In this document: positions 49,940 through 53,063 of the stretch, one piece after another
Layout: each line of letters begins with the position of its first letter
How positions within the stretch are numbered: position 1 is the first letter of the stretch
NCBI RefSeq assembly: GCF_002929825.1
Contig: NZ_PJJN01000034.1
Location: forward strand, 190,177 to 254,176
Length of the DNA stretch: 64,000 nucleotides
Source: Cryobacterium sp. Y29
Lineage (GTDB): Bacteria > Actinomycetota > Actinomycetes > Actinomycetales > Microbacteriaceae
Direction of reading: 5' to 3'
Program-made: the position numbers and the translations under genes
Notes under the pieces: generated by a model
The model's database searches: none
What the model was told of the DNA's origin: nothing
Seen by the model: only the letters and a program-made list of their open reading frames with translations

Positions 49940-51226
49940 CTACAGCCGGGCGAGGCGCTCGATGTCTTCGAGGAACTCGGCTGCGACCTCGTCGGACACG
50001 GTTCGGCGGGTTTCGGAGATTGCGACCTCATAATCTTCGGTGCTGGGGCCGTTGATAGCGGGCCCAGCACCGGCTTTGTAGAGAGCTTTCTCAAGCGCGT
50101 GCTGGGAGGCCCGATGGGCGGCGTATTCGACGTCGGCCGGGGAGAACCCGTCGCTCTGCTCGACCAGAATCGCGAGATCGACCTCCCCCGATACGGCGTC
50201 GGGAATGTAGCGTTCCCAGATGGCTTGGCGGGCGGCGACATCCGGCAGCCCGATCGGTACAACGTAGTCGAAGCGTCCGTGGCGAAGGAAGGCGGAGTCG
50301 AGTGCGCGAATGAAGTTCGTCGCACAGACCAGCAGGCGACCGGGTTGTTCGCGAAATGCCGGGATGATCTTGAGCAGTTCGTTGGTCACGCCCTGCATAG
50401 CCGAGGGCGGTTCGCCGGAGCGCTGGGCGGCGATCTCCTCGACCTCGTCGATGAACACGACCGCATGTTCGAGCTCGGCGATCTTCAAAAAGGTTTCCCG
50501 CAGCGCGCCAGCGAGGCCCTGCGGGTCGGTGGCGAGGCGGGAGGGGAAGACCTCGACGAAAGACCACTCCAGGCGGGAGGCGATCGCCTTGGCGAAGGTG
50601 GTCTTGCCCGTGCCCGGAGGGCCGAACAGTACGACGGCTTTGGGCGGCGATACACCGTACTGCTCAGCGAGTTCGGGCTTGGCCAAGGGCATGACCAAAC
50701 GGCGCTCAAGCAGTTCCTTCTCACGCTCCATCCCGCCGACCTTCTGCCACAGGTCGCGCGGCAGTACGCGTCCGCCCAGCTCACCGAGCAGTTTGAGCTC
50801 CTCCCGCTGCACGGGAATGTGCCGCTCGAAGTAGCGCAGGTTCTTCTTCACCTCGAACCCGCGATTGAGAAAGGGATCGACGTTCGTCTCTGATTCGGGC
50901 ATGAGCGCTGACAGTTTGGTCATGCCGTGCGGGGCCATGCGGCTCTCGAGGGCAGCGAGCATGGCCGTGCCGATCCCCTGGCTCTGCCAGCTTTCGGCGG
51001 TTGCCAAAAAAACGATCCAGCCTTGCGCGTGAGCAGCGCGGCCGACGGCTGCGCCGACGACCTCCTCGCCGTGCACCGCTACGACGGCGTGATCCTTCTG
51101 GCAGGAGGCGAGCACCTCGGAGAGGCCGTAGACCGGCTCTGTGTCTGAGGCCTTGATCTCTTCCCACAGACGCAAAATGCCGTCCAGATCGTCGGAGTGA
51201 AAGTCGCGCAGTCGCCAGCCAGTCAT
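49940..51226 (-). CDS. GNAT acetyltransferase - AAA+ ATPase fusion
   Basis: The 428-residue protein joins two domains in one frame. Residues 1-145 form a GNAT domain (LRDFHSDDLDGILRLWEEI, VVAVHGEEVVGAAVG, ESWQSQGIGTAMLAALE with the acetyl-CoA loop QSQGIG). Residues 165-428 form an AAA+ ATPase of the FtsH/Cdc48/spastin-like class: GPPGTGKTTFAKAIA (Walker A near 205), HAVVFIDEVEEIAAQ (Walker B), LVCATNFIRALDSAFLRHGRFD (sensor 1 and arginine finger). The ATG at 51226 begins the GNAT domain. An ATP-driven remodeller that acetylates or recognises a target is inferred; no partner gene is nearby. Confidence 0.92.
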   Translation of the reverse strand: MTGWRLRDFHSDDLDGILRLWEEIKASDTEPVYGLSEVLASCQKDHAVVAVHGEEVVGAAVGRAAHAQGWIVFLATAESWQSQGIGTAMLAALESRMAPHGMTKLSALMPESETNVDPFLNRGFEVKKNLRYFERHIPVQREELKLLGELGGRVLPRDLWQKVGGMEREKELLERRLVMPLAKPELAEQYGVSPPKAVVLFGPPGTGKTTFAKAIASRLEWSFVEVFPSRLATDPQGLAGALRETFLKIAELEHAVVFIDEVEEIAAQRSGEPPSAMQGVTNELLKIIPAFREQPGRLLVCATNFIRALDSAFLRHGRFDYVVPIGLPDVAARQAIWERYIPDAVSGEVDLAILVEQSDGFSPADVEYAAHRASQHALEKALYKAGAGPAINGPSTEDYEVAISETRRTVSDEVAAEFLEDIERLARL

Positions 51227-51272: not shown

Positions 51273-52972
51273 TCAGGCGTGAAATGCGGCGACGAGAATG
51301 CGAGGCAGTTTGCGCGCGGAGGGATGGGCGGCGAATTCGGTCAGCAGGCGGGCTGTGCGCACGCCGCTTCTAGCCGACACGAACCACGGCGGCTTGGGTA
51401 GCAGCGCCCACTCGGCGTGGGCGACCGAGCGTGGAAACGGGCGAAACGGACCGCGCACCACGGTGCGCTCCACCTCATCAAGAAGGAGCGCGTTATGGAC
51501 CACTCCGATGCCGCTCTGTATCTTATCGAGGGTGTGCCCTGGGAAAGCGCCCCACGGTGCCGCCGCCGAGAGAAAGCCGACGCCGGTCCAGACGTTGATC
51601 GCGATGGTTCCATACTGCAGGCGCGTAACGGCCTGTTCAAACCCCGGGCCAAGCCGCCGAATGGTACTCGGCAACCCGATAATAGTCACACCGAGAGTGC
51701 CGAGAAAATCACGATTAACGGTCCGAACGGCGGCGTCAAGATAGGCCTGATCATCCCCCGGCAATTCGACGACGCCGAGCACGGGTGCAAAGTATTCCGT
51801 TGTCAGCATATTTTCTGTGGAAGAAGATGCGGCAAAATTCGCCACATCTACGAGCAGGCGCCCGCCGGGAATCGGCTGCGCGGCCGGGTAGGCAACGCGG
51901 GCCGCTCGCATCCGCTCGTCGCTGCCGGGGTACCAGGCCGGTCGTGTCGGCGCGGCAGCGAGGGCAGCGGCGACCGCGGCGAGAAATGCGTGCTTCTGCG
52001 GCCAGGCGGCGCTCAGCACGAGCACCTGCCCGGCGATGCAGTTGTAGCCGCCGTTATGCAGCCGCATGGTGGCCACGTGTTCGGCCTGGTATCGCAGGTC
52101 CTTGGGGCTCCACCGGCCGGGCAGCACGATGATCGGAGATACTCCGCCGAGTTCGCTGCTGATCGGTTTACCGAGACGGGGAGTCTTGGACCCACCGAAC
52201 ACGATGGCGTCGTGGGTGGTCGCGCTACCGGTGATGTGCACATGGCTGATGTCCACGTGGTGGGCCAGGTAGTGACCCACGTCGGCGCCGCCGGTGACGA
52301 TGCGCAGCAGGCCCTGCGCGATGAGCGGGGCGAGAGCCGCCCGATAGATCGGCAGTAGTCCGTCGAAGGTGGGGTTGAGTTTGAGTATTGAGACCCGATT
52401 GTGCGCCACGAGCTCGTACAGCACATCGAGCGGGGCGATCGAGCTGATGTTGCCGGCACCGAGCACGAGACCGACCCCGCCGGTCGCTGTCGGAGCGAGC
52501 TGGCCCAAGCCGGCCGATACACGGGCCCGCCGCACAGTGACGCCCGGCCGCAGCCAGGCCCGGGCACTGAATCCGTGGAGCAGCAGCCCATCCCACGCAT
52601 TAGGGGCAATACGGAAACCGTGACGCGACCGCCCGGCGCGCGCTCCAATCTCTGGCCGGCGAGCGGGCTGCGCCCGGAAGCGAGCGCCCGCAGAGTGCGG
52701 CCGAGCGCATTCAACGTGGTGAGCACCCCGTACGGTCCGGTCAGCCATTCTTCGCCGATCAGCAGCGACGAGGAATCTAGACCTTTGGCACGAGCCGCAG
52801 CAGCCACCCACCGCTCGGCCTCGTCAGAAACGGATACTGCGGTGCGCGCCAGCAGATCGCTACGCGCTGCGAGCGGGGTCACCCCCCACTGCACGCTTCC
52901 TGCAGCCAACTCGGCGATCGCGAGGTCGAGCTGTGACGTGTTGAGGTCAGCGCGGTCTGCCGTCGTGGACAT
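51273..52972 (-). pseudogene. Aldehyde dehydrogenase family gene broken by one frameshift
   Basis: An N-terminal part (ATG 52972, MSTTADRADL to GGRVTVSV) and a C-terminal part (NAWDGLLLHGFSARAW to the stop at 51273) read as one aldehyde dehydrogenase-superfamily protein of about 565 residues, but they lie in different frames. The change falls near 52595-52620. The catalytic-type Cys lies in NGGYNCIAGQ, and HITGSATTHDAIVFGG and ELGGVSPIIVLPGRW are intact. One missing base would restore the frame. It could be a real pseudogene or a sequencing error. It is divergent from the zinc-ribbon/MarR promoter region on its upstream side. Confidence 0.85.
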
Positions 52973-53063
52973 TGATCTCCCGTGATTGGCGCCCAGACTC
53001 ACCCGGGGCAGATAACTGGTGCCTGGCGGACGTCTGCGCCCGGCATCCGCGCGAGGCGGCTGG

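Follow-up and report, generated by a model that had tools for sequence, protein, structure and literature searches.

The window analyzed here, a stretch of 64,000 nucleotides from Cryobacterium sp. Y29, contains a gene that joins a GNAT acetyltransferase domain to an AAA+ ATPase module. An uninterrupted open reading frame runs on the minus strand from an ATG at position 51226 to a stop at 49940 and encodes 428 amino acids. GAGG can be read in the sequence six bases 5' of the ATG. The features of the gene are listed below.

49940..51226, minus strand: GNAT-AAA+ fusion gene, a single ORF of 428 amino acids, with homologues collinear over both domains
50816..51226, minus strand: GNAT domain, approximately residues 1-137 (PF00583 at 36-107, PF13673 at 44-132, YpeA structure 2pdo at 5-117)
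Residues 81-86 of the window protein, minus strand: acetyl-CoA loop QSQGIG, from the loop census
50765..50815, minus strand: linker, approximately residues 138-154, between the domain matches
50081..50764, minus strand: AAA+ module with lid, approximately residues 155-382 (PF00004 at 198-326, 5vc7 match at 155-379)
Residues 202-208 of the window protein: Walker A, GPPGTGK
Residues 228-240 of the window protein: pore-loop-1 region
Residues 258-261 of the window protein: Walker B, FIDE
N304 of the window protein: sensor 1, within CATN
R315 and R318 of the window protein: SRH arginines, within RHGRFD
49943..49972, minus strand: C-terminal tail with the conserved last-but-one Arg, R427, from the C-termini of representatives

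A preliminary description of this DNA had proposed a single 428-residue frame with a GNAT and an AAA+ domain, carrying an acetyl-CoA loop, Walker A, Walker B, sensor 1, and an arginine finger, and all of these were found. PF00583 (Acetyltransf_1) scored 38.1 bits against a cut-off of 20.7 (E 2e-9, residues 36-107) and PF00004 (AAA) 87.1 bits against 21.2 (E 2e-24, residues 198-326); PF13508 and PF13673 were likewise over the Pfam cut-off, among the 25 of 43 matching families listed. AAA_lid_3 (PF17862) scored 19.4 bits in the window protein and 24.9 bits in a relative (L127), against a cut-off of 27.2, and no NCBIfam cut-off was reached by the 25 models listed of the 76 that match the window protein. 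Homologues ranging from 99% to 39% identity carry both domains in identical order. These two-domain homologues and the low dN/dS in both halves ruled out a chance ORF or two mis-joined genes, and the gene is a genuine rather than an accidental fusion. A predicted structure built with 26 close sequences had a mean pLDDT of 57.6 and a Foldseek TM of about 0.25 to p97, and was discarded as evidence.

Spread and naming of the family

The phylogenetic spread of the fusion, which the preliminary description had put forward as a check, is wide within Actinomycetota. Two-domain matches occurred in 29 of 396 genomes in a sample of the phylum (E 1e-40) and in 57 of 394 genomes in a sample of the class (E 1e-60), the source genome included in both. 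Since any AAA protein matches at E 0.001 (60 of 60 genomes), only matches at E < 1e-100 were counted in a smaller sample; 36 of its 60 genomes had one, namely the source genome, 30 of the 36 from the same genus, and 5 of the 23 others of the order. The nearest named relative, in Cryobacterium sp. Y57 (L031), is 99% identical across the whole protein.

The search beyond Actinomycetota covered plasmids, phages, viral contigs, and the best 80 of 547 contig matches, and each of these 80 aligns from residue 4 or earlier to residue 423 or later. Of 103 matching plasmid records, 22 contained 80% or more of the query, all in Actinomycetota genera, to which we assign the carrier Embleya. None of the 118 phage records with a match covered 80% of the query, and none of the 32 matches in viral contigs extended into the GNAT half. 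The fusion gene is therefore patchy and in part plasmid-borne. The AAA-half tree places members from one family (f22) in two positions far apart, with L113 grouping with L172, from the window's order, and L114, L116, L184, L187, and L189 placed elsewhere, which suggests horizontal transfer of the fusion gene. A metagenome-assembled genome titled 'Acidobacteria bacterium' (L042), perhaps a mislabelled or mixed bin, has a copy with 82% identity, a level shared by many copies from Cryobacterium. Broken second copies were seen in G267 (L255) and G596 (L212), each of which also has one unbroken copy. The copy in G596 had been a candidate AAA-only sister, but its GNAT region persists in another frame, making it a broken fusion and not an AAA-only relative.

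The union of the two domains is already on record in RefSeq by domain content. Some members, full-length and of the same family (WP_007297117, WP_331742139), are named 'bifunctional GNAT family N-acetyltransferase/ATP-binding protein', and others 'GNAT family N-acetyltransferase' or 'ATP-binding protein'; the records examined carry no function. The preliminary description knew of no characterised member, and none was recognised among the papers listed in our literature search, which is a weak negative because subscription journals were mostly outside its coverage.

Conservation and selection in the two halves

The 228 matching loci gave 166 distinct proteins (match from residue 8 or earlier to at least residue 380) and 73 representatives at less than 90% identity. 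L135 and L158 were left out because of a stop within the aligned stretch, and the truncated matches G127, G043:C23, and G267:C301 were not among the representatives, nor was that of G030, from which no locus had been retrieved. K208, D260, E261, N304, R315, and R318 were invariant in all 73. Mean pairwise identity was 0.61 in the AAA half versus 0.38 in the GNAT half, and the AAA half was the more identical in 2622 of 2628 pairs. The C-terminus ended in Arg-X in 50 of 50 representatives and, with one gap, in 72 of 73 in the larger set. The near-invariant R427 (codon 49946-49948, minus strand) may mark a C-terminal docking tail.

The QSQGIG of the window protein fits the acetyl-CoA loop pattern (Q/R)xxGx(G/A). 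In a census that also permitted H at the first place, (Q/R/H)xxGx(G/A), the loop was present in 59 of the 73 representatives and absent in 14. On a tree of the AAA half, the loop states required seven changes, at least four of them forced by well supported branches. Counting the borderline members L115, L171, L173, and L197 as loop-kept reduced this to four changes, and the first 50 representatives taken by themselves gave three; the trees were built quickly, carry SH-aLRT as their one measure of support, are rooted at the midpoint, and contain some long branches. We infer that these changes were losses. At E 1e-4, Pfam detected a GNAT domain in all four loop-kept members tested but in only three of six loop-lost members (none in L162, L127, and L122). 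Because the motor residues are present in every representative and the acetyl-CoA site is missing in some, the motor, rather than acetylation, looks to be the lasting job of the family.

Selection was examined through dN/dS. Among four Cryobacterium loci (six pairs), values ranged from 0.049 to 0.078 in the GNAT half and from 0.034 to 0.062 in the AAA half. Both halves are thus maintained in Cryobacterium, with the GNAT half under strong purifying selection. In a deep loop-lost clade of five loci, from which the practically identical pair L127/L128 was set aside, the AAA half stayed at 0.041-0.078 and the GNAT half stood at 0.249-0.441. This relaxation fits decay of the GNAT half better than a kept docking role. 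A loop-lost pair (L162/L182) had a GNAT-half dN/dS of 0.011, indicating very strong purifying selection, which suggests, from one pair, that the GNAT half can be useful even without the loop. A loop-kept pair (L117/L193) was as relaxed as the loop-lost clade, at 0.43, so constraint does not track the loop alone. Pooled medians for the GNAT half were 0.176 for 4969 loop-kept pairs, 0.61 for 13 loop-lost pairs, and 0.567 for 398 mixed pairs, compared to 0.121, 0.129, and 0.259 for the AAA half; as pooling mixes distant, probably saturated pairs, the close pairs were relied on instead.

The preliminary description had suggested a machine that reads or makes acetylation marks. As a general role for the family this found no support, given the absence of the loop on several branches of the AAA-half tree with the AAA residues unchanged. 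The window protein itself has an intact loop and a strongly constrained GNAT half, and acetyl-CoA binding there is still likely on these sequence features.

The nearest solved structure to the GNAT half alone was YpeA (2pdo; E 2.9e-5, residues 5-117), with which it shares a GNAT region and an acetyl-CoA loop. The YpeA model (PRK03624) gave 46.2 bits against a cut-off of 124, and unlike YpeA the window GNAT is joined to an AAA+ module and has Phe at position 119. We take this position, which precedes the Gly of the GF motif by four residues, to be where the catalytic Tyr of GNATs usually lies. Across the 73 representatives it was Leu in 41, Phe in 31, and Met in 1, and never Tyr. The catalytic Tyr of the last helix is not universal among GNATs.

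These data bear on whether the protein is an ATP-driven acetyltransferase of proteins, in which the ring would unfold or grip a target for the GNAT domain to acetylate, or the GNAT domain would mark targets for the motor. The intact QSQGIG, the prevalence of the loop, the constraint on the Cryobacterium GNAT half, and the match to YpeA all speak for it. Against it stand the branches that lack the loop and retain the AAA half, the replacement of the presumed Tyr in every representative, and the loop-lost members in which Pfam found no GNAT. We regard this reading as possible in the lineage of the window but on the whole unlikely. An intact cofactor loop without the usual catalytic Tyr also raises the idea that the GNAT domain is an acetyl-CoA sensor gating an AAA+ remodelling motor, which in several lineages would have lost its ligand site and run ungated; we think this doubtful.

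Gene neighbourhood

The upstream neighbour of the fusion gene in the window is an aldehyde dehydrogenase gene, likewise on the minus strand. Past the other end of the fusion gene come a plus-strand ORF without a Pfam family and then two minus-strand genes, for a DrrA-like ABC ATPase and an ABC-2 permease. The upstream dehydrogenase gene (51273-53002 of the window, minus strand) is split over two frames and aligns in one frame in L031, L033, L034, L035, L036, and L041; the split is either a recent break or a sequencing error. Differing genes lie beside the fusion gene elsewhere in the Cryobacterium and Arthrobacter lineages.

The preliminary description had also listed the neighbours of the fusion as a check, and in this case nothing shared by the family emerged: across 60 deeper loci, with 798 neighbours from a crude ORF caller, no family-wide partner gene was found. 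The most recurrent neighbour cluster, by eye a short-chain dehydrogenase, which is a common protein, occurred at 8 of the 60 loci, and six of the nine clusters with four or five loci were confined to one genus (g290). At 95 mostly Micrococcales loci, the top three neighbours were present at 30, 27, and 26 loci, which we read as synteny within Arthrobacter-like genomes, as other lineages differ. Pfam annotation of neighbours from 23 loci (125 of 135 proteins, with 10 short ones excluded) gave three members for the commonest family, among the 25 of 139 families listed. No protease was recognised by eye in the neighbour clusters of at least three loci, nor among those 25 families.

Two themes were tried, and neither was established for the family. 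One of dormancy or hypoxia, prompted by one Rhodococcus plasmid, had too few recurrences compared to 20 control stretches: DUF5994 was found at 5 of 60 loci versus 0 of 20 controls, a universal stress protein at 3 versus 0, HypD at 2 versus 1, and a response regulator at 3 versus 1. A universal-stress-like protein was recognised by eye at 10 of the 95 mostly Micrococcales loci. The other theme, CO2 uptake, is clade-specific at best, since DabA was absent in 23 of 34 genomes, including the source genome. In 6 of the 34, DabA shared a contig with the fusion gene, either intact or broken. RuBisCO was found in 6 of the 34 and in none on the contig of the fusion gene, in assemblies that are partly fragmented. 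At L253, L254, L255, L155, L156, and L149, DabA lies within approximately 10 kb of the fusion gene (a decayed copy in G267), and five of these six genomes have one gene order with two-component genes and a SulP-type transporter in between, as judged by eye. At L164 and L142 (a Kitasatospora plasmid and G344), genes for hydrogenase maturation (hyp) adjoin the fusion gene; such genes were also present in 1 of the 20 control stretches. Stress genes lie near the fusion gene in Rhodococcus. A loop-lost member on a Tsukamurella plasmid (L162) has a trigger factor gene and two ClpP genes at a distance of approximately 5-8 kb. The hyp, stress, ClpP/trigger factor, and DabA neighbourhoods are local associations.

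A variable neighbourhood, which at some loci includes genes of metabolism (isocitrate lyase and malate synthase, for example), is compatible with a small-molecule acetyltransferase that inactivates a metabolite or drug and uses the AAA half for regulation or assembly. Plasmid carriage and a YpeA-like GNAT domain would also suit such an enzyme. We nevertheless consider it distinctly unlikely, because conservation is higher in the AAA half than in the GNAT half, and a regulatory module would not be expected to outlive the cofactor site of its enzyme in several lineages.

The AAA+ motor and its proposed role

Among solved structures, the AAA module scores best with VCP-like/Cdc48 proteins (5vc7, 5g4g), with residues 155-379 matching 5vc7 at E 5e-66 and the Walker, sensor-1, and SRH motifs in common. 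In contrast to those proteins, the window protein has one AAA domain, an N-terminal GNAT domain, and belongs to a family whose pore loop mostly lacks aromatics; the CDC48 model gave 123.6 bits against a cut-off of 802.65. PAN and the actinobacterial Mpa/ARC ATPases likewise pair one classic AAA domain with a partner domain at the N-terminus. Unlike them, the window protein has no OB domain in the listed Pfam families (25 of 43), and it scored 139 bits against 500 with the PAN model and 76.9 against 504.75 with pup_AAA; its genome also had no match to the proteasome.

The pore-loop-1 region of the window protein, PSRLATDPQGLAG, is unusual in containing no aromatic residue. One of 50 representatives had an aromatic within the pore-loop window, and 3 of 73 had Tyr at position 235. 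The FtsH-like protein of the same genome has FVG at pore loop 1, and its MDGF corresponds to IPAF in the window protein. The aromatic-hydrophobic-Gly pore loop 1 belongs to threading members and is not common to all classic AAA proteins. As p97 D1 likewise has no aromatic pore loop, the unusual pore loop does not exclude threading. PF00227 (proteasome) had no match in the source genome, which is 99.98% complete, while 10 of 14 control genomes were positive, and no Mpa-type ATPase was over the cut-off there. A proteasome partner is therefore unlikely in this organism.

We judge an unfoldase that supplies a protease, for instance as an alternative partner of Clp or the proteasome, very unlikely. 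The AAA half does score with VCP-like, PAN, and FtsH sequences, the conserved Arg-X tail might dock somewhere, and the two ClpP genes on the Tsukamurella plasmid, about 6-8 kb off, suggest that a protease link may hold in some lineages. However, the source genome had neither PF00227 nor Mpa over the cut-off, the tail is not an Hb-Y-X motif, aromatics are mostly missing from pore loop 1, and no protease was recognised in the neighbour clusters or the families listed. A separate phage GNAT has been described for which the authors suggest a possible action on ClpX and HslU, and they also report that its effect persisted in clpX and hslU mutants (PMC7552054).

An anti-phage ATPase of the IetA kind is highly improbable: the PADLOC IetA models (E 3.5e-27) and NCBIfam IteA_antiphage (88 bits) do recognise the AAA half, and the gene is patchy and partly on plasmids, but only that half is matched, the 88 bits lie under the 510 required by NCBIfam, higher scores come from other classic AAA models, and no protease family, as expected for IetS, was found at E 1e-5 in the eight window neighbours scanned, three of which are without a family or are frame fragments.

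The explanation we prefer, tentatively and at somewhat less than an even chance, is a stand-alone AAA+ remodelling ATPase that would dock its target through an N-domain of GNAT origin, possibly with tuning by acetyl-CoA in members that retain the loop. By analogy with the classic clade (Cdc48/PAN/FtsH-like), the AAA+ module would assemble as a ring, probably a hexamer, and the GNAT-derived N-terminal domain would dock the target as N-domains of that clade do. In loop-keeping lineages, that of the window included, docking or motor activity would probably be tuned by acetyl-CoA binding. The motor would then pull on or reshape the target, probably without delivery to a proteasome, given a pore loop 1 mostly without the threading aromatic and a source genome with no proteasome. 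The near-equal constraint on the GNAT and AAA halves in Cryobacterium suits this explanation and a true enzyme equally well.

Singly, both domains are textbook ones; their union is a widespread actinobacterial family, apparently unstudied within the literature searched. Because it has members with and without the acetyl-CoA loop, the family allows a clean test between an enzyme, a sensor, and a docking platform. If the GNAT domain gates the motor, acetyl-CoA would directly control protein remodelling, and if it is truly a sensor, the central carbon state of these bacteria would govern protein remodelling.
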